A stretch of 64,000 nucleotides of DNA, taken from the NCBI GenBank assembly GCA_002205965.3, contig NADL03000748.1, positions 248,001-312,000 of the forward strand, written 5' to 3'. The notes under the pieces were generated by a model that had not been told where the DNA came from, did no database searches, and saw only the letters and a list, made by a program, of their open reading frames with translations. Origin of the DNA: Kappaphycus alvarezii (taxonomy: Eukaryota > Rhodophyta > Florideophyceae > Gigartinales > Solieriaceae). Of the stretch, positions 1-59,400 are shown one piece after another; position 1 is the stretch's first letter; the number at the start of each line of letters is the position of its first letter. Position numbers and translations under genes: made by a program.

Positions 1-741
1 TCTTGGTCATTTTGTTCAATCTCAAGCATGGAAATCCGTTTTCATTGCTTTAAGAATATCTGGGAGGCCTTCTAGTCCCCCATACGTATATGAGTATGCG
101 TTGTGCGCGAAAAAATCGGCCACTGCAACGTTATACACGAAGACAAGAAGTTCTCCTTCTTCTCATATTCGTTCAGATTGCGACCGTGTAACGTGGTCCT
201 GAAAGACAACTTTACACTCCTTCGGTATCAAAAGCGCTTGTAGAGTCGCTTGCGCTACCGTATTACAGATAAGAGAAGCAAAACTTCCTCTCCCGGCTGG
301 AAGTACTTGTCTAGGTCAGAACTTGAGCGCCTAAAGACAAAGTGCGTCCCGCTGACAACTGAGGCGAATCCGTGTTCGTTCCACAAAAATATTCGCTGAT
401 GTCTTTCTGGGTATGCAGAAGGGCTCCAGTCTTGGTAGGGTAAAAAAACAGAAAATTTCAGTAGAAGTTGACCGCGGTTGCTCGTTAAACGGGACTGTCA
501 GATGTCTAGCAAGCATGTTAAAGTTCGCTACTGTAAATACGCAGTGAAATGTGCACGGGAGTACAAACATAATTATGCGAGCGTTCTGTACCGAAAGTTG
601 TACCCTATTTGCAGTTTTAGGGCCTTCAGTTTTCAGGTAGTGTGAAACTATAGATGTATCTCCTTTACGCCCTTTAGGAGCTATAATCAATATTGATATC
701 GGCTGAATAGAGAAACGTATAAATGATACTGCAGGAGGCAT
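1..741 (-). pseudogene. Unidentified minus-strand coding relic at window edge
   Basis: I do not recognise the product. On the minus strand an open frame runs from 741 to 331. Coherent protein-like sequence then continues in other frames toward base 1, including the stretches FVFRRSSSDLDKYFQPGEEV (near 340-280) and ICNTVAQATLQALLIPKEC (near 270-210), then GLEGLPDILKAMKTDFHA (near 80-30). There is at least one frame change near 280, and stop codons near 160 and 30, so as written it is broken and it also runs off the window. It is arranged divergently from the ParB-methyltransferase relic that starts near 1260, and could belong to the same element. Coding character is inferred from amino-acid composition only; no family is assigned. 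Confidence 0.35.
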
Positions 742-1259
742 CTCCTAGGTTTGATTTAAATCGCTGCGACTCGACCTATACATGTCAATGAGGTGATGTT
801 TTTTATTTGGTAGATTCCAGCCATGTCACTTCACTTCTTCGAGATATCAAAATGCACCTGGATATTTCTCTTTAAGATGTCTTAATTTACATACTTATAC
901 TTGGTCTGCGTGTTTCATAGCTATAACTTAAATACTGATATTGAGTAATGGCTAACAATTCTTACTCTGCCTCAACTAAAGTGATTCACAAGAACCCGAA
1001 AGTCCACTTCAACTCAACAGGGAGGGTACTTCTAACGCATTTAGGGTCGGGGTATTTCTATGTCAAACTCAATTTATCAATACTGCGCTTTGAAGTAATG
1101 ATAAGCTCAATTTTGTTACCTTTTCTGGGATGGTTTAAAGTTTGCACATCAAGTTTAACTCGTTTTTGTTTTCTTAAGGAATCTTATTTTGACCTGGAAT
1201 CTCCCCTCAAAAATTTCTAGAACTAACTTCAGAATCTCCGGAAAGGAAATAAAAAGTCA
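742..1259. other. Intergenic stretch between two divergent relics
   Basis: AT-rich spacer between the minus-strand relic and the plus-strand ParB-methyltransferase relic. It contains a 90-codon plus-strand open frame (948-1220) with no recognisable motif. If the two relics are one divergent pair, this is where their promoters would lie; I see no specific promoter element. Confidence 0.3.
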
Positions 1260-3775
1260 TGCCAAAAGGAAATACAGAGTCCGCCAGTGTTCACGATGTA
1301 GATAGACAGCCTCTCTTCGAAAAGAGAGCGCCAGAGCCGTCTCAAGCTGAAGTCGCAAAGGCACTTTTTCAGGATATGATGTAAGGATCGGTGAACACCA
1401 CCGAAGAACCATTTGCTTACATTACTCTCACATGTGTCCGAAAAGAAAGTCAGAGGAGGAATAGGCAGACTCAAGCATATATTCTCGACTTTGCACTGCG
1501 CGGAACACCACAGTGAGGTTGGGCCGGCAACGTCCAATATTGGGATTGTAGCTGGATCTGACCCTCCAATTGTCATACCTCTCACCGGGGCTTTCCGCAA
1601 CAATGTAATAGAATATTTCAAAATGTAACGGAACATTTCTGAGACGGAGGCAAGAGAGAAAGCGAAATCTCGTCGCGAGTGGTATGGCGTTGTCGACGGT
1701 ATACACCGCTATAGAGCCATTTTAGAACTCATGGAAGAAGACTACGGCCGATATAGGGGCTTCTCTTGGCCAGTAACGGTTTTGAAGGGCGGTCATGACA
1801 CTTCGATACTAGGACAGCTTGCACGACATCAGAATAAGAAGCATTCAGCCGATTTTTTTATTGAAACCACTTCTATGACACGCGTCGAGGGCTGCGGGAT
1901 GATGATAACAAATTAATCGCGGCGAACAACGGAAAGAAGCCCAGTGCCAAAGAAGTCGCTCGCCAATAAGATTTTATGCCTCATAATCGAGAGAGCACCG
2001 TGAAGCAGACTGCCTCTACAGCAATGCGACTGTCTGAGGATGTGATTAAAGCAATTAGAGATATAATGAATTCAGAGCACCCTCATCTGGCTGACGAGAA
2101 CGTACAGACGCAAAGGAACTCTATTGGTCATTCATATCCTGCAGACGTGACGAAAATCATAGATTGTCGAGTCTATCGTAAATTCATACACATATTATCT
2201 TTGAAATCAGCCACAGTGTTCATGAACGCCGAAGAGAAAATGGATATAAAGTGTCGAGACTTGACGCTTTATCGCCTTAGAGACATTTTTCGCCAAAATA
2301 AGTACAAAGCAGCGAGCTACAAGACTGTCACCGAACAGTACGGAAAAGGCCGGCAGCGTATCAGGAATGCAAGAAGTTTGAATTACTCCTAGAATCAGAA
2401 TTTTGGACGGAGGAATTGAGTGTTATGAAACGTAATTTGCTAGAGGCTTGCAAATTTGACGACGATATTATTGTAAACAGCGGAAACGTCAGTGAAATAT
2501 TGCCTTTCATTTTGGGGAAGTACAGCTCATCTTGACCTGCAACTGTACCGTTGAAAGAAGCAAAATACAAAGCAATCATTTCGCAGAGCGGCGGAGAAGA
2601 CGTTGAACCTGTTGCGATATGATGGCCCAAATATTCGCGAGAAAGAACGTCACCCTAGAGATACAGAGGGATCACGACAGAAACTCGCTTCAGATACTGT
2701 CAGATACTATCAGCAAGATGAAGATGTTGAAGTTGCGGTGGGGAATGAATCGAGTACCTTTGTAGGAAGCAATGCGTCAAATCTAATTGATACTGGGGGC
2801 GTATTTAACGTGTATTTGGCCCAGTTTGTAGTTACCTGTCATCAGATGAAATGGCAGCATTTCAACCAGCACGTACTCTCTTCGGATGCTCCACTTTTCG
2901 ACATGCTTCTAACCAATCCACCATACGGTACACATCCTTCTCGTTCTCGCGCTGGCTCTGAATACAGTAATTTCGTTAGCCATAAGGAAATGAACTCATT
3001 AGCGCAGTTTGCCAGGAATGTGCTTTGTCCGGGTGGTTGGGTGTTTACTATTTACCTCCGTTACCTATTTTGGAAAATGTTTAGCCGCTTTTAAGTCTTG
3101 TGGTTTCAGCAGTCCGGGATACCCATATGTGATCGTAATGGATACAAGCAGTATGCGGGAATATAGAGGGAATGAGTTTCCTAGGAACGCATGTTAATTC
3201 GGCATTGTCGCGAACGCACCGGACCGTAGAGTTGTGGATTCAAACCGGATCGTAAGAGCCCCTACCACTTTGTTCCGGTTAGGGAGAAAAGAAAGTTTGC
3301 TTGCGTATCCATGATCCCGGCTACTCCGAATAAGCTCTTGAGATCTGGCACCAGAGCACCAGTGCTCGTAGAAGAGAAACACACGTCTTTGCTATCCGAG
3401 ATACTCACTATATTTTGCCTGGACGGTGGTTCCGTTATAGATACATATGCTGGAAACATGTCCACTGCAATTGCATGTATGCAGACTAACAGAAATTGCA
3501 CGGCAATCTAGATGAATTTGGAGACATATCGATTGGCCCATGTTCGCTTTAAAAAAATTGATAAGGAGAGGGAAATGCTAAACACAGCTCTTGTTTTAGT
3601 GAAGAGAAATCGTAGTTATATGCAGAACGATGATCAAGAAACACCATCAAAAAGTGTCAACGACACTCGTGAAATAGAAAATACGAACTCAGATCGGTTT
3701 CATGTGTCTATTTTAACTAATATTGATGTGCAAATCCCAGATGAGGATCTCGATGATGAAGAACTGAAGAAGTAG
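1260..3775 (+). pseudogene. ParB/Srx-like domain fused to beta-class DNA methyltransferase, broken
   Basis: Fragments in changing frames read as one protein of about 830 codons. After an ATG at 1260 comes a ParB/sulfiredoxin-type domain: DPPIVIPLTG (about 1560-1590) and VVDGIHRYRAILELMEED (about 1689-1742), carrying the G-x-H-R-x-x-A signature of ParB nuclease/CTPase domains, then WPVTVLKGGHD. A helix-rich segment follows (PSAKEVARQ, near 1940, then 1976-2392), comparable to the DNA-binding part downstream of ParB-N. The C-terminal half has the amino-methyltransferase catalytic motif NPPY (2915-2926), followed about 500 bases later by an S-adenosylmethionine-type motif (SVIDTYAGNMSTAIACM, about 3431-3481). 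Catalytic motif before SAM motif is the beta-class N4-cytosine/N6-adenine order. Stops at 1626, 1914, 3194, 3309 and 3509 and several frame changes show it is dead or badly sequenced. ParB-methylase fusions are known in phages and bacterial mobile elements; transfer into this genome is inferred. Confidence 0.62.
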
Positions 3776-3910
3776 TTAAAAGTGCTCCTCATTAACCCTG
3801 TCATTCAGTAATCCATGTCTCTATTCTTTCTCAACGGCGGTTGCCACGTATAGTAACTCAGCGACAGTTTTCTCATATGCTACATTAACGGCAGTAGCCT
3901 CGTATATAAT

Positions 3911-4356
3911 ATGTCAACTTCGTGGTGCAGTTTACGAGAGCCGAGCAGAAAAATGTCACCGGAATGTTGAAGAAATATTTGAGTACAAGGGGCGACACGC
4001 AACCAGGCGAATTTTCGCTTTCGAACACAGAAAGCGGGAGTTATTCAGAGTTTGGGAGCAAAAGTCCTCCCGAAAGTAAGCAGGAGAGTTGCCATAAGTC
4101 ATGATTTGGAGTACAGAGCGAACCAGTTCGTTGCTGTTTCGTGGGCAAGAATGCACAGAGGCAATGCCATTCTGTGTCGAAAAGGTCCGCAAGACCCGCA
4201 AAAATCCAGACGGGTTTTTGTACAGCTAAAATTTGGTGGTACGAAGTATACGATAAGGGTGATGCATTTTCTGGGAAGTATGGCCTTCGCTTTTACTATT
4301 CCAGCAGGCCATGGGTTGAAGAGATACGTGTAGACGCGATTATCGTATGCTTTTAG
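3911..4356 (+). pseudogene. Unclassified coding-like relic
   Basis: Downstream of the methyltransferase relic, the plus strand keeps protein-like stretches in two frames, for example LEYRANQFVAVSWARMHRGN and VFVQLKFGGTKYTIRVMHF (frame of 4052-4333), with a competing frame at 4141-4356. I recognise no family. It may be the tail of the same mobile unit or a second gene of it. No start can be chosen with confidence. The preceding 130 bases show nothing. Confidence 0.25.
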
Positions 4357-4483
4357 AGGCTGACTCAAGCTTGGAGGATTGTAGAGCGGGTTTCGGTCAG
4401 GATTAGGCGAGCGTTAGGAAAGCAGTAGTTTCTGGTAGCTGACAAAGAAATGGAACGTAATAGAATTGTGGGTAGAAGCACCA

Positions 4484-4900
4484 GAAAGGATACAGGGGGG
4501 GAACTGGGGCGGACAAGGAAGGCAGCGATATGGGAGCAGAATTAAGGGACTTCTGAGTGCAGTAAACGGGGCGACATGAGGGCGGAACTGAAGGACTGCT
4601 GGATGCGCGAACGGATACGATATGGACAAAAGTGAGGGACTGTTGAATGCGGGGAAGAAGACCATGCGGGAAAAGGTGGGGAATTTCTGAGTGCACAGAA
4701 GGGGCCGTCATGGGGGCGGAAGTGAGGTACTGCTGAGTGCGTAGAAGGTAGCGCCATGGAGAGAGTCAAAATTCATGCAGCTGAGCGCGCGAGAGAGGGC
4801 TTCATGTGAGCAAAAGTAAATGGCTACTGACCACACTGGAGGGGGCTACATGGGGGCGGAAGTGAGGCGCTGCTTAGTGCAGTAAACGGCAGACGAGAGA
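4484..4900. repeat. Degenerate 46-bp tandem repeat (about 8-9 units)
   Basis: Units share a core like catgggggcggaagtgagg followed by ctgctgagtgcagtaaacgg. The ATG inside the core recurs at 4530, 4576, 4622, 4664, 4710, 4756, 4804 and 4850, giving spacings of 46, 46, 42, 46, 46, 48 and 46 bases. Similarity continues weakly upstream to about 4484. The most alike copies are those at 4710 and 4850. Open frames here on either strand are by-products of the repeat. Confidence 0.8.
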
Positions 4901-6100
4901 GTGAAGGCGAATCCTTCGCCGAACCGCAGCCATCGGGTGCCTTGAGTGATTTAGGACATGGGGCCAAATATCATCTTCCCAGTAAGACGCAAGCTGACTC
5001 TGTCCAAGGTTGATATGATGTTTTGTATGTATTATGGGGCTTGGAGGCAAGAGAGGAAACCGTAAGGTCTGGATGGGGACCCTGGTATTGGTCGGGCACA
5101 ACGTGATGCAAGCGTCGGAATAATTCCACAGGCTGGCACGAGCTCCGGCTAGCTGGAGCGCTTGCGACCTGGCCAATGCGTTTGAACTGAGGTCGATGAG
5201 AGGATGGAGGGAGTGGGAGTTAATGATGCCGGCCGGGTGCGAATCAAGATTGAGCGGTGAAAGAGGGGTAAAGCAATGGCCTCCTAAGCTAAAGGGGAGG
5301 GCCACCTGCTGGTGAACCGAGTCAGTCAAATCGTTCGGTGTCAGCTCAATTTTATGTTGGAGCCGACGTGCCGAGGCAGCGATGTAGGGAAAAACATTTC
5401 CGACCCGCCGATGAGGGCCAGCTAGTTATTGCATGTATTACTGTTTTCCTCGATAAAGTTTCCCATGAAGGGGAGAGACCTGATAGAGGCACCGAGCAGA
5501 GCAATTCCCTGTTGCAATCAAGGTGGCGGAGGATGGGAACGGGGTGTTGTTGTGAGGGAGTTCCCCTCGCGTGAGTCTACCGAATACATCAGATAGTGCC
5601 GAAATACTCACGAACCCGGCCTGGGACACGACTGTCGTATGGGCGAGAACACCTTGAAGATGAACGAGGCGCGGGTGCATCCGATCCGGGCCCGGAGCAG
5701 AGTTTGGGTTGAAGTGGCGAACAGCTTCGAAGACAGCATCCTCCATGATCCTCATTGGCATGAAGAGGTCTGTGGCGGCAAGGGGTGTCACCGTTGTTGA
5801 TGGAGCGGGTTGCAGGGTTGGAGGCGGGCAACCACCGTGGGGTCCCTAGCATCGGCGATGCGTGACTGATACAGGGTGCGCATCGTCGGGCTGTATTGAG
5901 GATCAGCAGTGAGGCGCTGTGCCCTCTGAAACATTGGGTCATGTTCTCGGTCCTCAGAAGGAGGGCGACGTGGGACAGTGTTCCTGGCGGTTCAAGTGAA
6001 CATGGAGGGCTTCTCCCCGTAGTTCACCCCATTCACTGCTGTTGGCTTGGCGTATGCGATCTTAGAGTCCTTGGTGTTGCCGAATTTATTATCGCCAGCC
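4874..6100 (-). pseudogene. LINE reverse transcriptase relic (reversed)
   Basis: The minus strand at 5791-5438 encodes AVRHFNPNSAPGPDRMHPRL, which parallels the RT palm-entry motif ALQALNRHSAPGPDGMRPS of the LINE at 19.4-23.5 kb (SAPGPDGM is the conserved core). Further along the same strand (5329-4874), QVALPFSLGG parallels CATLPFTMGG of that LINE's post-RT region. The intervening catalytic YADD block is missing or lost in frame changes. The relic ends next to the 46-bp tandem repeat. No target-site duplication was found. Confidence 0.6.
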
Positions 6101-8561
6101 AACCCCCCTTGGAGTAACTGACGGAGAACGGCAGTGGGGAGGAGTTGGATTCGTAGGGAAACAGAGTGAGGGGTCTCTGTGTTCCGCGCAACTGTTCACG
6201 GTACAGTATTGTACAGTACGTGTAGGTACCGGACGGCAACAGTCGCCCATTCTATGCCATATTTATCAGTTACACCTGCACCGTTTAAAATTGTTTAATC
6301 GTGATGTCTGAAGTGTCCAGTTTCGACTACTTGAGGCCCAAAGGAGTTGATTGGGCAGATTTTTTAATTACACTGTACGTTTTTTCCGATATTTACTCAA
6401 AGGGAGTTGTCGTATGGCATCATGCATGAGTGTACAACATGGTAAAAACGTGCAGTACCGTACTTTACCGTACAGTACAGTACAGTGCTGTGCTGCACCA
6501 TTTGTTGCACTTTGCACTGTACTGTTCTCCACTTTAAATGCTGAAATTCGCCAAATCCGTGTTCAAATCATCTGTCAATTCTCGGCCCGCGATCACACCA
6601 CAATTATAAATGAGCTAGGAGGCATTTTAATAGCGCAAATAGATTTCACCTTTGCAGGAGATGATAAAATTGGCTGCTATTTCCACAACGACCCGTTAAA
6701 TCTCCCCTGTTTGCACTCGCGCTCGCCCAGAGTGTTGGATAAATGCTTGTGTGCGACGCTGGGTTTAGAGTACGTGGCCCATGAGGGGCAAGCCGGGTCC
6801 GGCTGAAGGGACCACAAAATGGTGTGGCTACTGTACAGTGCAGGCTGCACTGTAGGCAGCTGTAATTATTGATAACCTTAGTATCCGCGGGATATGGGAC
6901 AACTGTCCATGAGGGTTGCCGCCGCCTTGTTACTGTACAGTACACTGGCCGGACGGAATGAGACCGCAGAGGGTCCATAAGTAAATGGGCAGAGGGCCGC
7001 CGGTAAGTGCGAGGAAGGAGTTATCACGGTCGTCATCTTCACAGAGTACATGCACAGCTGCCCTACGCAATCAGTCTGCCGTAGTCGCTGTGCCTCTCCA
7101 ACAAGCGCGGAACTCATGTCCTTCCCGATGCCCATTTACGCTAACCCTGCGACGATCTTGCAGGAAATTATAACGGTGCTACTTCGTAGTTGTAGGATAA
7201 TAGTCTATCCTCATGCAAATAACTGTACAAAACGGTCTTGAATATTTCGAACAGTTAAAGTTCTTAGCTCTTATCTAAGAAGCCCATCGGTCGGCGCACT
7301 CACTAGAGAACTACTGATTAAATATCATCTTCCTCTCTTCAATATACCTCACTGTAGAAAACACCCGTGCTGAGCCCCTTTTTACATATAAAATCAATTT
7401 AAATATGTTATATTTACAGTCCTATTGGATAGCCATTTTCCCTCACTATTATTTTAATCTCCGTGTTATGTATTTTGTCTATCCTATTTGACTACTTGCA
7501 AAGAGCTACACATGTTGTATTTTTGTGCTTATTTTACGGTAAGGTGCCCTAGAACATACGCTAGGGATCGTAGCTAGTAGAGGAGTAGGTTTGCTAAAGC
7601 TAGAAATACGGCGCATAATTGCCTACAAAAGGCTTCTCCGCCTTGATTATGGTGCAGTCTGAGGAGTGACGTGTCACAGTCCCCCCTTCAGAGAGCTACT
7701 GATCAATTTTTCAAAAAAAATTGGCAATTTCTCCATGATTGGACAGTATTTGTCCAGTATGGTAATTTTAATTAATTGGAGCCATGCACTAAGTGGAACT
7801 CAGGGTTTTCTCCTGAGGTGTTCCGCTTATTACAATTTGATTTCGCCGCTCTGAAAGGATGGTTAAGTTCTAGCGACAATTTCAAAATCTTAATTCCCTG
7901 CTTTAGAAAAATAATAAGCTAAGAAATGTCTCCTTTTAAAGCATGTACCTTATTTTTGATACTTCTCTAATTTACATCACGACCAACCGTAAAAGTCTAA
8001 AACAGAAACTACACGGGACTGAAGGTCAGAGAAACGATAACATGTACATTTATTAGTCCCTTACACTGTGTGGTAAAGTTGAAGTACTTTTACTGAGTGA
8101 CTAATTAAAAGTTTAATAGTTCCATGTTTACATACAACATTTAATAGCCTAATGAATTGTGACCAAATAAAACCCATTAAAATATATCAATAGAAAACAT
8201 AGTACTGATATATTATATACATCAAAGGTAACGAAGTAATAAAATATATTGCTTAGAAGTATTATTTTCTAATAATACAAAATTGATAAAAAATATAACG
8301 CTGATCCAAAAGAAATTGTTGGTACCGACATGAAAAAGATATTATACTAACCTATTGGAGTTCATTAGTTCTAAACCTTTAAATAACAATGGAAGATTAC
8401 AATTCAATTCCGTTAATAGCATAACATTTATTATTACACTAGTAAAAGAAAACGTGACGATTACGTGGCACTGAAATTAGTTTAGTTCAGTGATAATTTT
8501 TAGTAGTATTGTAACAATAATACCATTGGTGTGGTACGCATAGCATATTTGGTATAACATT
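6101..8561. other. Long stretch with no gene; GTACAGTAC-type palindromes
   Basis: No supported gene. The first half (6190-6960) holds several copies of short palindromes built from GTACAGTAC/TACTGTACAG, with the densest cluster at about 6450-6495, and a near-perfect inverted pair around 6828-6858. From about 7240 onward the sequence is strongly AT-rich with only short open frames. A motif gattaaatatcatcttcc at about 7317-7334 recurs elsewhere in the window. Confidence 0.4.
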
Positions 8562-20590: not shown

Positions 20591-23445
20591 CAACCGGCAT
20601 GAACCCCCAATCGTGCCCTCTACCCGATATCATCTTCCCGATGCGGGTTCCAACGCTCAAATACCTACCCAACTGCCTCCGCGCAGACCTCCATCGCCTA
20701 TTCCACGACCTCTACTCCCGATACAACTCAGCCCGCACACAAGACACCCAAGCTGACGCACTCTCTTGCATCCTGGCAACGCCAAAACTAGTTCTTCGCA
20801 GGAATGGCCGGCACGAGACACGAACTCGCTCTTCACTGGCGTTCATCTCAACCCTCCGCAACCGCATCCGCCTCGCTAGGCAAGGACAGTGGCAACAGCT
20901 TTACACGAGCTGCACTGACGCCTTTCCACCACTGCAACACCCCACTGCGCCGCAGAGGGCGACCCAGTCTCCAATACAACGATGTCAACGATACGTCCGG
21001 GACGGATGTCTCTCCAAAGCAACGGCTGCCCTCCTACAGAATACGCCACCGGCGACGCCTTCCCCACACACACTTCCCATCCTCCAAACCTTCACCCCTC
21101 GCCCCTCCAAGCCACGCCAACCCCTCAGCCCGAACTCCCCACCGTCACCCCCTTCGCCGAGTCCACAGTTCGACGAGCCTTACAAGCCCTGAATAGGCAC
21201 TCGGCACCCGGACCAGATGGCATGCGACCCTCCATCCTTCGCGTCCTCTCGACGGCTCCAGCGGGCGGAGAACCACAAGCAAACGCACTGTCAGCCCTAA
21301 CGGACTTCGTCAACAAGCTCGCAAACGGCACTGTACCCTCCTCACTCCAAACCTGCCTCTCCGCCGCATCACTGATCGCAATCCCGAAAAGCTCACCTGA
21401 CTCTCTACGTCTACGGCCCATAGCAATCGGGATCCTATACAGACGTTTTGTGGCACGGCTCCTCGCAGCTAGACTCAGCAACGACGGCGTCTTTCTCTCG
21501 CACCTACGACCGCTGCAACACGCAGTTGGCTCTAAACACGGCATTGAAGCTATCATACACGCCCTCCGCCTCACGGCTTCTGCCCTCAAAGATCAAGACT
21601 ACGTCCTACTGAAAATCGACCTCTCCAACGCCTTCAACAGCGTGGAGCGCTCCTGTTTTCTCCGCTCGGTCATCGACTACGCTCCACAGGCGGCCAGGTT
21701 CGTTCACCTAACCTACGGGAGGGCCTCGGATTTGCACTTCGGCCCCTACGTCCTGCAGTCTGCCACAGGTACACACCAAGGCGACCCTCTCGCCATGCAC
21801 CTGTACGCACTCGCCATCCAACCTTTCCTCCGCCATCTGCACACATCCTTCCCCGCAGCGCGATGCACGCATGGTATGCCGACGACGGCAACATCATCCT
21901 TCCCTCCCGTGACGCCCGGATCTACTGCATACAATCGAGAGGGAAGGCAGGCAGATAGGAATGTTTATTAACTTGCAGAAGACTGAAGCATGGTGGTTCG
22001 GAAAGGACAACCTCCCCCGCCTCCCCTGCAAAATCGTCACTGCCGAGGCCACTACAGTGCTCGGGTCCCCGATCGGAACTGACCGCGGATGCTCTTCTCT
22101 CTCTCCCACACAGCCTCCAGTCCGCCCGGAACATCTGGGCAGCCCTTCCAGCCCTCCGGGATCCCCAAACTTCCTTCCACCTCCTTCGCCACTGCGCAAG
22201 CGCATGCAAGCTCGTGTACACCCTTCGGACAACCCCGCCGCACCTAACCCTTTCTTTATCAAATGCGTTTGATGAAGAACTGCGAGGGGCTTTTCAAAGG
22301 ATTCATCGCGACCTTCATCAGGCTTCTTGGCACTGCGCAACACTTCCATTCACAATGGGCGGCCTGGGGCTCACACTCACATCCTCAATCTACGCCGCCG
22401 CTCATCTATGTTCCATGCTCAGTACCTACCACATCATCCTCGACCTACTCCCGGAAGACGGACGCCACCTCCTCACCTCTGCCGTCCGCAGAACGCACAG
22501 CTCCCTCGACCAGTCCCTCCTCCCGACCACCTCCAACTCGAGCCCCTGCTCGCCCGCCTTCAAACGGTGGGCCCACCGCAAGGCGTCCAGCCAACTATCA
22601 CCAATGCCATTCACGAGCAACGCCTCCAAGCATACCTAACTTCTCCCCGCAACATGAAACCGCAGCCCAACGCCTCGCGAGGAACCTTAGCTGCCGAACC
22701 CGCTCTGCCAACTCCCCTTTCCTCACACTCCCGGACTCACGCAGCTCTACTCGAGTCTCCCCCGAGATCTGGACGTACATGGTCCTACTGCGCCTCGGCA
22801 ACCCGGTCTTCAGTGGCCTCGACCGGTGCCCTCGATGTCTGCTCTCCAACGCTCGCTCCCGCCCATCCTCGACCCGCTCGGCAGACACGCGACTCATTGC
22901 CCAACTATGGAAGGATTTCTCCGAAGGCACAACCACCTACGGAACAAGCTGTTCTCCCTACTTCGGCACCCATCCGCAATGCTCAACCCCACCCTCGAGT
23001 ACACCTTCCCCGCGGAAAACCACCTCCCGCCCCAAGACCGTCACAGGATGGACATCTTAATCAACAATTACGAGCTCTCTCCTCGCCCCTGCGCCATAGA
23101 TGTCTTTGTCGCCAGCCCGTACACAGCTGCCGCCATCCCCCACGCCCGCAAGACCCCAGGCGGCGCCACTTCCCTGTGGAGACCCAGAAGAGGGCACGCT
23201 ACGCCGACCTTTGCGCAACAATACACGCCGACTTCTTCCCCCTCGGGTTTGACACACATGGGGCACTGGGCTCCTCTGCTCCACACGCGCTAGGGAAGAT
23301 AGCCGCCTTCTTCTCCACACGACGCGGCACTACCGCTGCCGTCGAATACGACCGCCTGGTCACTACCCTCTCCTCCCTCGTTCTCCAGCTCACGGCCCAT
23401 GCCGTAGCTCGCCGTGCCCTGTCTCTCGCATCACCTGATGCGTGA
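20584..23445 (+). pseudogene. LINE ORF2: reverse transcriptase plus restriction-like endonuclease, frame-broken
   Basis: Starting at ATG 20584, the N-terminal part includes LYSRYNSARTQDTQADALSC and RRNGRHETRTR. RT follows in a second frame: HSAPGPDGMRPSILRVL (about 21200), LRPIAIGILYRRFVARLLAA, LKIDLSNAFNSVERSCFL (catalytic Asp, about 21615) and SATGTHQGDPLAMHLYALA. The second catalytic pair WYADDGNIILPSRD follows near 21869 after a frame change. After RT come KTEAWWF and TTVLGSPIGTD, then LPFTMGG. A C-x2-C element (LDRCPRC, about 22820) leads to DPLGRHATHCPTM and LRRHNHLRN, then MDILINN and CAIDVFVAS, fitting a Cys/His finger and an RLE-type nuclease. The C-terminal end reads RARYADLCATIHADFFPLGF and stops at 23445. 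At least five frame changes interrupt it, with few stops. Confidence 0.8.
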
Positions 23446-43800: not shown

Positions 43801-46800
43801 CGGCTGCATATCACCAGAGACGAATCTGACCTATTCCTAATCCAAAAGCCAGCAAAAATATTGAAGGTCAAGTTACTTGCTGGCGTCGAGAGCACAGTCG
43901 CTCGGAAATCCCTCCGTGGTTGACCCCTTCCATCAACTGTTCTAATAGCAGATGGTAACACAACTGCGGTTTTTCTCGAAGCTAGTTCATCGAAGCTTAC
44001 TTCAGGTCCAAACCGTGCCGGTGTACTTCCATCGAAATCCCCAGCACCCCGCAAATTGTGATTATCTGCATGGAGTCCAGTACAATTATCGAAGGCCAAT
44101 GACAAAACGTAGTTTTCCAATTTTGCCCAGAAAAATGAAGATGGGTCTGTTTCAAAGGTTCTATTGTCCCTGCTGCAATGACGATACCTTCCCTCCCTTT
44201 TTCGGCCCCAGTTCTAACTTCAGCTGATAACTCTCGCTGAACTACACGGTATGAAAGAGTTCGCGGAAGATTATTACAGAGGACACAGGTGCTCTCGCAA
44301 CAATGTCTACCCAAGGAAAGGTATCTCGTTCCTGTGAGCTCAATGGATGAATGCACTTGTTGTTACGGCGAAAAGGAAGTCAGTGGACCCCCCCTGAGTG
44401 CTTCGACATCTGATTGAAGCATTCCTGCCTCGACGCGTTGCCGAATTTCGGGAATCTGTGACATTCGAATGTCTGTCTGGCAACTCCCGCACATTCTTTG
44501 TTAGCCACGACAAACTTGGAAGGGCAGGGCTCCAATCGAACAAAACTCGGGACGGAATGCCTGGTATCTCAGATATTGCCTCTGTCACTACGCTGTTCCA
44601 AAACGCGGCCTGATCCGAATCATGCAATGCTCACAATTGATTGGAAGGGCAAGCGACTTCCCCGCAGCAATCACCTCAGAGGACCCAGAGCTGCATTCCC
44701 CAACGGCATCGTCGACGTTTTCAATACGCAGCTCCACGGGAGCTTCTGTTTTGTTCAGAAAACGAAACAAGGATCTCAAAGTACACACAGGGATCCCGTT
44801 CGCCATTTCTACCTCCCACATGACATGTATTGGGCGAGAGGGCTCTTCGTGTTTCATGAGATCATCGCGAGAGCTCGATAAATTTTGCGAGGGATAAAAC
44901 GTGACACAATGCTTACCAATTTCAGCTGCTGACAAATCTAATGGTATGAAACTTGGAATAAACAGGCGGCACTTCAACGCCTGATCTCTCCTACTCCTTT
45001 CTCCTGTGGCGGTGGATGATACCAAGTCTTCAGAGTGAATACCTGCTTCAACCTCAGTATTGTTGACAACCAAAGTCTTGCTCGGGGATCCCATCCAGGC
45101 CATATATACGGGAATCCCTAGCTCATTGCGCATCAAGAAAGCCGCAACACTTGGTCGTCGGGTAGGTAACTTCTCCGTGCTTCGACCTGATCTATATATC
45201 CCTTGGCCCTCTTCCTCATGAGCAATTTCCAAGCTATCTGCATTACCTGCCCGTCGTCGGGTGGTAGCACTCTTTAACGATTTCACCACCGTGACAACCG
45301 TTGAGACAGTGGTCGGAGTAACATTGACATTAAGGCGTTCTTCTGATTTGATTACTATGGCCCTCGTACCGCTATTGCCGTGGCTTACGCTTGCTGAGAG
45401 TGGCCATGACTCCACTGCTGGTTCCCACCAGCCTTTTTTTGCATTGAACAAATCCATCGCGATCTCACCGTGCACTTGTACCATGCTCCCCACATGGGCG
45501 TTGATATCAAAAGATTTCAACCGAATTTCAAGTACAGGTATATATCTGCCGCTTGCCTCATCAGTAATAAGATACCTTGCGTTGGGTATAGTTACAGATA
45601 AGCTCATATTCTCTCGTGCCTTCCGAATTCCTTCTTTCTTTGAGTCCTTGGTAGACCTCCTGCGGACCTGAGGAGGCTAGAAGACTGGACCCATTGCCGC
45701 CCTTGCAAATAGGTGGTTTTCATTCTAGATGGACGAGATATTAACGATTTTAGTGGAACCTCCCCGACATTAATGAGGCAGAGGACAGAATCCACAGATA
45801 TGTTCAGACGACATCCACCTTCATCAACTTGAGCAGCTGTGTATTCGATGAAAGAGTTTGTTGGATAGACCAATGGAATGATGCTTTTCTCTAATTGGGG
45901 TGCGTAGAAAACCTCCACAGGACTACTAACATCTGCACGGATTGGATGCGGAAACGCCGGCGATGTAGAAACTTCAACTTGCGTTGACTGCAAGGATACG
46001 GTTTTGGCACCTGTTCCCCTCATCCAATCTATCTTCAGCTGAAATTCTCCGGTAAAAGCAACAGCTCGATGATCACCCTTGTTCTCGTCAGTGCGCAAAA
46101 CCACCTGTGAGTTGCTCAGTAAGACTGTCATTGTGCGACCGATATATGGAATGTCAGGGGCCAGCGATGATGTCTCGAGATATGGCCACCCTGGAATAGC
46201 TAAGAAAGTAAGATCCAGGACCAACTCGGGAACTACCTCAACTTGCAAGCCCTTGAGATAGACAACAATTGAAGGTCTATCCCTGTTTTCCTTTTCATAC
46301 GTTAGAGTTATGTTTTCACTTCCTTTTGTCTGCTCAGTACTACTTCCTCCAGTTGTCGCACCTCCCATTATGGACTCTGGTTGAACAGGGACCACAAACA
46401 TTTCTGATTAGCTGACCTCTCTCGAGTCAAGTCTTGAATCGCAAGTAGATTCCCGGCTAGTTCAAAAAATAGGTGGTAAGGATTGCTGTAAGTGAAGCGC
46501 AGCACTAAATCACGGAAATATAGTCCCAACACTTGCAGGATTCATCTGAGACGTTCCATCCACGCGAAAGTTCAATGCTAAGGTGAGGCATGGATACATC
46601 AATATCAACAACAGATTTTCTCTGTCCCTTGTGCAGATGTCGCAGCTGTCGTTTCTTCTTGACCAGTCGACATATTTATGTCTGGGTTGAATATTTGAGC
46701 CTCCGAGGACCCCCACCTGCACGTGACGTGTAGATTCCATCTCATCGAGGTCACTAAGGTCTATCGAAAGTTCCGAACCATTTATGGTTTCTGCCAATTC

Positions 46801-56454: not shown

Positions 56455-59400
56455 CGCAATACGCGTTGCTCTTATTGCGGAAGCACCGGTCATTCCGAAG
56501 CCACTTGTTGGCCTGTCGCTAGGGACAGGTCTTCGGGAGCTCACGATAAAAACGAGGAGGAAAATGGAAAAGAAGGTCAGGTTAATGTAGTCTGTGAAAG
56601 CTATTCAGACACCGATTCTGCTGTCTAAGAAGTCGTCTATGCAACAAAAAGAACAGCCGCGGGCGATTATTTACCAAAAAAGCCCCGCCAAGGAAACTAA
56701 GAGGGGATTCCGATACCCTGTCTCGTGAATAACCCACAGCAAGCCAGAGTTATACCCTCTATCCCAATGGTAGAAAAATTTCGTGATTTTAATCGCAGGA
56801 GGAAGCCGATGAAGAACAAAAGCGCGAAAAAACTCAAGCAAGATACAAGAGTACGTGGGCAAATATGACGTCGTGTCGGACCTTGCGAATGCCAACTGCG
56901 GTCTGACATTTGGTCAGATCCTTCGCGGGGATACAGATAGAGCTACCAAGATAATGAGCCGTTTGCTCGGGAAGCAGTCAGCACCCCGCGTCGCAGTCGT
57001 GTCCAACCCGGAGTCTCGCCTATTACGCGTCGTACAACTTAAGGTTTATGGCACTGATATTTGGGCATTGCTAGATTCTTGGACAGTACCCAACGTGATG
57101 TCCGCCGTTTTTTCTCGACGTTTATGTCTATCGCCGAATTTTTCGTCAAGGAAGATAACAGTGGCTAATGGAGAAAGTTCGTCTTGTGTCGGCTCGTTGC
57201 TGAATGTTGCTACTTTCGGAGAAAAAGGGGTCAAGTTGGACTACCTTGTTGTCGAGAAGTCTCCATTCTGCATTATCATTGGGTTTCCTGCAGTCACATT
57301 TATGCACAAGCCTTGAATTTGGAGCGCAGAGTGTGCTCCTGTACATTAGGTCCGAAGATTCGTGCTACCGCTCGAAACTGATGCGAAAGAAAACGAAAAG
57401 AGGCCCGTTAAAGGCGAAGATATCGGTACTTCCAGCGAAAACTTCACATCCGACTCGAACGCTGGGCCGGAGGCATTGGATTCGTCCGAAGAGGAACTTG
57501 TTTTGTTCATCCGCGGAGACGTGGTGGAGCAAGGAGACGGGAAGCCTTCTGGCGGAGAAAGCACCAACGTTGAAGAAGAAGATGGAGTTCGTGGCGCTCT
57601 TAGGGCTCGTCTATCGCACCCTCGAGAAGAAGACCAAGCGCTACTAAACGATTACTTCCGAGGCAATGGAATAGTCGCTTGGAAGATTAACGAGCTTCGT
57701 CCCGCCGCGGTTCCACTGGAACACAAGTTTGAGCTAAAGGAACCAAATAAAGTTTACCACAGAGCTCGTCGCCTGGCTCCGCGTCACAATGATACGGGCC
57801 GACAATAAGTTGATAAAATTCTGAAAGCAGGTATTATTACCCCAGAATCTTCGGAATGGTCCTTTCCTGTAGTGATATACTCCAATAAGGATGGAAAGCT
57901 AAGATTCTGTGCGGATCACCGCACTTTGAACCGCAATATGAAGGCTGATCGTTGTCCTCTGCCCAAAATAGAAGAGATATTCGATAACCTAAAGGTAGCT
58001 CGGTATTCACTAACCTCCACTTGTTCGCAGGATACTGGCAGGTTCGCATGGGAGAGGAGTGTAAGGAGATGACTACCTTGTTTACAGTTATGGGACGTTC
58101 AAGTTTGAGCTTATGTCCTTTGGTTTCATGAATGCGCCGTCAACTTTTCAGCCCAGGATGGACTATGTTTTACGGGACATTCCCTTTGTCCGCGTTTATC
58201 TGGAAGATTTTTTCGTCTTTTCTAAATCCGTAGAGAAGCAAATTGATCACTTAAATATAATTTTAGACGCTATCGCAAAGGCGGGCTTGAAGCTCAAGAG
58301 CAACTGGCTTCGCAAAGTCACTAAGTGTGACTTTGCGAAACCAGCTGTGAAGTTTCTGGGACAAATAGTTGACAAAAACGGAGTTCACGTCGACGAAGAG
58401 AAGATTAAGGCTGTCAAGGAAAACCTGGTTCCGAAGGGTACGACTGAGTTGCGCGGTTTCCTGGGCCTTTCCGGTTATTACCGCCGTTTTATTCGGGGTT
58501 TCGAAGAGATTTACGCCGCATTACATGATTCTACGTCTGGCAATAAGGATTTCAACTGGACAAAGGAAATGATGGAGGCATTCGAGACTTTGAAAGAGAA
58601 ACCCACCACTCCACCTGTTCTGGCATTTTCGGACTTCAACTCCCCATTTATGGTGGAAACCGACGCTTCGAGCGTCGCAGTACGGGCAGTCCTCGCCCAG
58701 GAAAAATAGGACGGGAAGATAAACCCGTGCAGTACGCTAGCCGCACCATGAATTAGGCTGAGAAGAACTATTCCGCATGTGGAAGAGAAACTCTAGCGGT
58801 AATTTTCGCCTTGCGGAAGTTTCGGGTATACTTGTTGTCGACAAAGCCATTCGGGTTGGTTACCCATCATCAAGACCTTCGCTACGCATTTAAAAATAAC
58901 GACATACATGGAAGGATGGTGCGGTGGCTGGAATTTCTTGCTGAGTACGAGTTCGAAGTCGAGTATATGCCGGGCGCAAATAATGGAGCCGCGGACTACC
59001 TTTCGCAAGCCGTCCCTTCTTGTTCCACACCATTCTCAGGTGTGGATGAAGGAGACTTGGTTGCAACAGTTGGTCTAGTCGCTGTCGTAGAGGGCCGTTC
59101 ATTTGAATCACATATAATTGAGGTCGCTCGTCATCCACAGGAGTTTAAGATCGAAGAAGAAGACGAAACCAAAAGGCGTACAATCAAGCGTATGGCGAAG
59201 CGCTTCATGGTTTGGGAGAGGGAACTACCACGACGCACAGAAATGGAACTCAAGAATATTCCCTCCCTTGAGGATAGGACGTCGATACTCCACAGCTTCC
59301 ACGACGATATTGGACACTGGGACACTGAAACCATGAAGAAGTTCGTCTCTGACCGCTACTGGTGACTGTATATGCATTGGGATATCCAAAACTAATTGAA

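Follow-up and report, generated by a model that had tools for sequence, protein, structure and literature searches.

The plus strand of the window, the 64,000 nucleotide stretch of Kappaphycus alvarezii DNA that was analysed, carries the remains of a gene that runs from an ATG at 1259, opening MPKGNTESASVHDVDRQPLFEK, to the stop at 3773-3775 that terminates its final piece. About six frame changes and no fewer than three in-frame stops (1382, 1626 and 3509) break up the reading frame, so the feature (1259-3775) was annotated as a pseudogene, the putative product being a ParB-like/methyltransferase accessory protein. Four regions, all on the plus strand, were delimited, 1) a ParB/Srx-like region (1395-1913) with one internal TAA (1626), proposed from PHROG ParB-like matches and the sub-threshold matches of relatives, 2) a middle region (1970-2535) in two frames, well conserved in the family, for which tblastn with two middle pieces gave up to 75% identity over 60-70 residues to family members, 3) the first part of a methyltransferase (2555-3094), assigned from matches in the same genome and a weak Pfam match to the UPF0020 methyltransferase family (0.021) and 4) the second part of the methyltransferase (3230-3511), assigned from matches to Pfam N6_N4_Mtase and a PHROG methyltransferase family. 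A six-frame motif scan of the window located VVDGIHRYRA at 1689-1718, NPPY at 2915-2926 and the SAM motif, VIDTYAG, at 3434-3454, 519 bases after NPPY. The original prediction had listed VVDGIHRYRA, a helical middle, NPPY and a SAM motif about 500 bases further on, and all were present on one strand in that order. Motif strings were rejected as sole evidence; the patterns G.[HQ]R..A and [DNS]PP[YFW] occurred 7 and 9 times, respectively, in the six frames of the window. Since single motifs recur by chance, the pieces were searched against the whole genome.

The genome searched comprised 336,021,096 bases in 884 contigs. The first methylase piece gave 36 tblastn matches and the ParB-like piece 33, the window included, and merging yielded at least 38 loci, 24 of which were matched by both query pieces; the locus counts are lower bounds, as the search scores the best candidates only. 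A further locus on contig C851 with the same piece order was reached only by way of the Pfam search. At most loci with several pieces the order was kept and the spacing was similar, and this recurrence of separate pieces at many places in the genome argues that the family is real. The loci were sorted by eye into three groups, group A, which resembles the window copy (about 75-83% DNA identity), group B, in which about half of the amino acids are identical to those of the window copy, and the more distant group C (about 37%).

The original prediction had proposed a search for intact, multi-copy versions elsewhere in the genome, and this recovered many copies (38 loci). No intact full-length copy was present among the loci read, most of which extended only 1.5 kb past the match, and consequently no activity can be claimed for the genome today. 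The longest uninterrupted frame seen in the family, 343 codons on the minus strand of one relative (L036:2247-3275), began close to the N-terminus, spanned the ParB-like part and entered the middle region, where the end of the locus truncated it. Two other relatives, L035 and L044, had frames that were open across later junctions. Because these three relatives are open across junctions that are broken in the window, the window gene must once have been a single reading frame, and introns were rejected as the explanation for the broken frames.

The C-terminal half is, on the strength of its homology, firmly assigned as a methylase. The piece at 3230-3508 matched a PHROG DNA methyltransferase family at 3.2e-6 and a group C piece matched a PHROG methyltransferase family at 3.9e-11. 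The profile search proposed with the original prediction recovered the amino-methyltransferase homology; the match of the window piece to Pfam N6_N4_Mtase (E=6.9e-4, 20.1 bits) was under the cut-off of 26.7, and five family loci (on C73, C131, C133, C135 and C130) passed the cut-off in the genome profile search. Motif IV ([DNS]PPY), represented by the NPPY at 2915, precedes the FxG-like motif I, represented by the VIDTYAG at 3434, on one strand, and the family alignment agrees; this order, IV before I, is that of the beta-class amino-methyltransferases. Among solved structures, the methylase profile (A2) found none, and two single window pieces gave weak phmmer matches only. The idea that the C-terminal part of group B is a plant-transposon domain was dropped; of three pieces, one matched DUF7497 at 0.0017, under the cut-off, one matched nothing and one gave weak unrelated matches.

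The N-terminal half is very probably ParB-like, judging from a set of matches that individually fall short of significance. The window ParB piece matched two PHROG ParB-like families (0.046 and 0.11), and the ParB region of the relatives matched GmrSD_N (0.055, 1 row), DndB (0.14, 1 of 14 rows) and DGQHR (0.16, 2 of 14 rows). DndB and DGQHR are presumably members of the ParB/Srx superfamily. All of these matches were sub-threshold (E 0.046-0.16), and the five separately built families belong to one superfamily, in which GmrS has been placed (PMC5512222). The four ParB-superfamily matches whose positions are given cover the GxHR/GxQR site. Matches to unrelated families were also obtained in this region, namely Perilipin_2 (5 of 14 rows, best 0.0026), an IF-2 family (0.029, 1 of 14) and PHROGs of unknown function. 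A single-sequence model of the ParB-region fold had a pLDDT of 37, too low to be informative, and a search of solved structures with the ParB-region profile (A1) returned no ParB chain and four unrelated chains at E 0.087 or worse.

An N-terminal half that is an unrelated DNA-binding domain, with the methylase alone of prokaryotic origin, is a rather improbable alternative. It would account for the failure of every ParB-superfamily match to reach threshold, for the absence of any Pfam ParB_N (PF02195) match at the 38 loci with E values up to 1, and for the reversed controls (n=7, searched against PHROGs only), which produced four chance matches, the lowest at 0.027. It would not account for the convergence of five families of one superfamily, four of them on the GxHR/GxQR site, nor for the ParB-labelled PHROG match, which appeared with 2 of 7 forward sequences and 0 of 7 reversed ones, and an algal protein of this architecture has been published (PMC12477816). 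With a ParB-like N-terminal half as the preferred reading, the proposed fusion of a ParB/Srx domain to a beta-class methylase held for the methylase, which was detected by Pfam and PHROG with five loci over the cut-off; the ParB part was reached by sub-threshold matches within one superfamily and missed by ParB_N at all 38 loci. The sole ParB_N match of the genome (G000:C534:295298-295573, E=1e-34) was in a 327 amino acid open frame outside the transposon loci.

The pseudogene is contained in a 10.2 kb element (G000:C744:244406 to 254561, with window position 1 at 248001), the left end of which lies 3.6 kb before the window and the right end at window 6561. The part inside the window (1-6561, plus strand) was delimited by DNA searches of the same genome with window 1-2600 and 3200-7200, by the locus L063 and by a terminal motif. 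In group A the DNA similarity extended beyond the gene on both sides and then stopped sharply, with many copies ending near base 3364 of the 3200-7200 query (window about 6563), and an inverted partner was found across the gene on C744, C502, C587, C519, C653 and C9. Thus, for the repeated unit whose boundaries the original prediction had proposed to seek, both ends were located and inverted arms were observed on six contigs. The left arm of the window copy is L063:55-1511. By blastn, the inner right arm (3918-4703, minus strand) was 88% identical to L063:711-1511 and the outer right arm (5899-6561, minus strand) 82% identical to L063:55-713. The right arm exceeds the left by about 1.2 kb, a segment at 4704-5898 that blastn showed to be absent from the left arm. 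Part of this segment, 5438-5845 on the minus strand, is related by blastp (E=6e-10, 32% identity over 125 residues) to the reverse transcriptase of a LINE that lies elsewhere in the window. As the segment was also matched in the right arms of other copies, the element probably continued to multiply after gaining it.

The LINE-like reverse transcriptase to which the right arm segment is related is GC-rich and lies at 20919-21971 of the window (RVT_1, 2.4e-8). Elsewhere in the window, a retrotransposon was recognised at 58065-58709 from matches to reverse transcriptase and RNase H, and a piece of a VPS13-like gene on the minus strand at 44588-45676 (VPS13_M, 1.4e-10, under the cut-off), to which the flanking minus-strand frames may belong.

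The terminal motif was found at L063:57 and at window 6541-6561, and the terminus reads CACGGATTTGGCGAATTTCAG inward. All eight termini, from four loci, begin with the 21-base motif CACTGATTTGGCGAATTTCAG with 0-5 mismatches. The left ends at the four loci start with CACTG, and the right ends with CACGG, TTCTG, CTCCG and TAGTG. The ends of group B, read at two loci, are CAACC, unlike CACTG. Imperfect short GTACAGTAC-like repeats at 6449-6498, just inside the right terminus, are possible candidates for binding sites of the transposase or of the ParB-like half, and about 60 bases near the right end (6488-6548) were matched by 3 of the 20 group B and C loci (L034, L054 and L012). No target-site duplication was found, in that no common triplet was seen by eye beside the ends at any of the four loci with both ends read, which include C502 and C587; these are, however, old copies with degraded right ends. 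The outer flanks of C502 and C587 are in common, so these two represent one insertion that was duplicated later. For both reasons, mobility is deduced from repetition and boundaries.

The hallmarks of EnSpm/CMC transposons include a 3 bp target-site duplication and a transposase of the DDE type that bears C(2)C and H(3-4)H motifs. The CACTG of the group A left termini fits the EnSpm pattern, described as 5'-CAC..GTG-3' (PMC12730594). However, the right ends are variable, the group B ends differ and a target-site duplication was not found at the ends read.

Pfam DUF7869 was matched by two pieces (4.3e-17 and 1.4e-9) that lie on the opposite strand to the left of the window, and the genome profile search detected DUF7869 beside the window copy at E=4e-33. 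The ParB-methylase gene and a DUF7869 gene occupy opposite strands of the 10.2 kb inverted-arm element, a pairing that recurs in the diverged subfamilies. Genome-wide there were at least 144 DUF7869 matches (150 of the 187 candidates were scored), or 129 after merging. Of the 38 loci, 22 had a DUF7869 match within 10 kb, which was upstream and divergently oriented in 20 cases and downstream in 2, compared with a chance expectation of about 0.008 per locus or about 0.3 loci in all; at the other 16 none was found within 10 kb. When 12 pieces of the element (5 from L063 and 7 from the window) were scanned with Pfam, DUF7869 and the methylase alone were recognised. Because of this linkage, and because it is the sole other gene recognised in the scanned pieces, the DUF7869 gene is likely to be the transposase. 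Algal ParB-methylase accessory proteins are encoded in DNA transposons, opposite to the transposase, and the location of the window gene, between inverted arms and opposite to the putative transposase, agrees with this. Just beyond the left arm, the plus strand carries another DUF7869 match (G000:C744:243246-243791), which was attributed to a neighbouring element of the same group. Taken together, we put the probability that the pseudogene is the remnant of an accessory gene belonging to a red algal DNA transposon of the DUF7869 type at roughly 0.8.

The mismatches between the window copy and its relatives were counted by codon position. Compared with 13 group B loci, 37%, 30% and 67% of positions 1, 2 and 3 differed (5,025 codon comparisons), and compared with four distant loci (L012, L019, L021 and L023) the values were 47%, 38% and 69% (861 codon comparisons). 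These group B and C comparisons used protein-guided alignments, built from the best tblastn stretch (E up to 1e-5) for each piece and hence biased towards conserved codons. Within group A the three positions were nearly equal, 19%, 18% and 22% for five loci (2,463 codon comparisons) and, in a DNA-only alignment, for example 0.17/0.14/0.17 for the window against L029; the L031 rows and the pooled values of the DNA-only test were set aside, the upstream part of L031 being non-homologous. The loci compared were hand-picked, other loci of groups A and B being left out, and the comparison pools related loci. The pattern suggests purifying selection on the protein between subfamilies and near-neutral decay of the copies within group A, such that the protein appears to have been selected during the divergence of the groups, with the decay of the A copies coming later. 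It also suggests that the protein once mattered and that the copies read are fossils.

The same data bear on the idea that a host or bacterial gene was captured by chance, as in Pack-MULE-like cargo, and then copied along passively. In its favour, all the copies read are broken, group A decays almost without codon constraint, and the right arm contains a LINE fragment that was multiplied in just this way. Nevertheless, the third codon positions differ most, and a gene carried passively should have lost its frame at a much earlier stage. Moreover, the orientation beside DUF7869 was kept in groups whose non-coding DNA hardly aligns; window 1-1255, which is non-coding, was matched by none of the 20 group B and C loci, many of which are short. 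Passive carriage was accordingly considered improbable, and an accessory gene of the transposon remains the preferred reading.

Bacterial or phage contamination was rejected. The copies are on large contigs, for example the 2.66 Mb C744, and the genome has 17 matches to the phycobilisome linker (PF00427), several of them beyond 1 Mb of their contig. Phycobilisome linkers mark red algae. The original prediction had named a contaminating contig as the finding that would overturn it, and the size of the contigs and the linker matches make contamination very unlikely. A related possibility, that the element derives from an endogenous DNA virus or a bacterial contaminant and not from a transposon, is highly improbable as a whole. 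Phages and mobile elements do encode ParB-like/methylase proteins, inverted terminal arms occur in some viral elements, and tblastn of a group C methylase piece against phages gave weak matches to 255 records, all below 60% identity, with the 15 matches listed at 28-38% identity over 30-43% of the query. However, the group B methylase piece had no phage match in the same type of search, and pattern-based scans of IMG/VR and prokaryote genomes, in which only contigs with the exact degenerate peptide are visible, revealed no relative. Furthermore, no gene other than DUF7869 and the methylase was recognised in the 12 scanned pieces, and the contigs that carry the copies are large contigs of a red algal genome. 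The proposal of a bacterial or phage enzyme captured by a eukaryotic element was thus upheld for the element, which is 10.2 kb long with inverted arms, recurs at 38 loci and is paired with DUF7869, and was left without a donor, since neither the group B phage search nor the pattern scans returned one.

The closest published counterpart of the window gene is the accessory protein of Sola1-1_Ec32, a DNA transposon of Ectocarpus, which is described as having a ParB-like domain and a predicted 4mC/6mA methylase (PMC12477816). As far as the description goes, the two have in common a ParB-like domain and a methylase in one protein, a large DNA transposon and a location on the strand opposite to the transposase. 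Sola1-1_Ec32 differs in being from a brown alga, with a Sola-1 transposase, a 1104 amino acid protein and a length of 21.5 kb (PMC12477816), whereas the element described here is from a red alga, has a DUF7869 gene, is 10.2 kb long and is represented by broken copies. The same paper states that similar proteins occur in transposons of red and green algae, citing a 2011 paper and Petroll et al. 2025. Because a ParB-methylase gene in a brown algal DNA transposon is already published, together with red and green relatives, the window gene is not the first of its kind, and it is less of a novelty than the original prediction supposed (PMC12477816). Giant EnSpm elements with accessory genes have also been reported from Bostrychia moritziana (Petroll et al. 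2025, as cited in PMC12477816) and are likewise red algal DNA transposons that carry such genes. The present analysis adds the pairing with DUF7869, the boundaries of the element and another family of methylases, which is accompanied by a putative SET domain. Literature searches by topic, and one by the name DUF7869, did not encounter the DUF7869 partnership, which Petroll et al. 2025 may contain.

Other precedents are more remote. Bce_0392 of Bacillus cereus, cited in PMC5512222, is a ParB-like domain fused to an adenine methylase, the ParB half of which is reported to be a nonspecific nicking enzyme; by that description it has the fusion in common with the window gene and is bacterial. DIRS elements with Dam-like methylases, retrotransposons of Symbiodinium and Klebsormidium with DNMTs (PMC5890265) and methylase-carrying Mariner elements in giant viruses (PMC3627910) are, like the element described here, transposable elements with their own DNA methyltransferase. 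They represent other classes of methylase and element, and the passages that describe them make no mention of a ParB-like domain.

By homology, the intact protein would have bound DNA through its N-terminal half, the ParB/Srx-like fold together with the middle region, and would have methylated adenine-N6 or cytosine-N4 through its beta-class half. Its target would have been the DNA of the element itself, most likely the terminal arms with the GTACAGTAC-like repeats. The most likely consequence of such methylation would be to counter silencing of the element, or to time or control the binding of the transposase. The ParB-like half may also have nicked the ends, a possibility raised by analogy with the nickase of Bce_0392 (PMC5512222). 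Self-methylation of the element by the intact protein is put forward tentatively, at somewhat less than even odds. The copy in the window is incapable of methylating now.

A second family of beta-class DNA methylases was seen in the same genome (L006:619-2244, minus strand); inspection by eye showed much the same layout in L002 and L004, and the 10 kb around the family contained no DUF7869 match. A single stop separates the L006 methylase from a SET domain downstream in the same frame (Pfam SET, 3.8e-4, 1 bit under the cut-off), whereas at 0.001 the corresponding piece of L002 did not match SET. It would be unusual for a DNA methylase to be joined to a histone methyltransferase.

A wider proposal, which we regard as speculative and on balance doubtful, is that DUF7869 is the transposase of an unclassified group, that the ParB-methylase is its standing partner and not cargo, and that the methylase writes 6mA or 4mC on the ends of its own element as an anti-silencing or transposase-control mark. 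If so, the SET-linked second family would mean that the coupling of a DNA mark to a chromatin mark has arisen repeatedly in red algal mobile elements. Methylase-carrying transposons offer a test of whether mobile elements write epigenetic marks as well as suffer them, and the window copy supplies the boundaries of such an element, a linked gene that is likely to be its transposase and signs of past selection on the protein.
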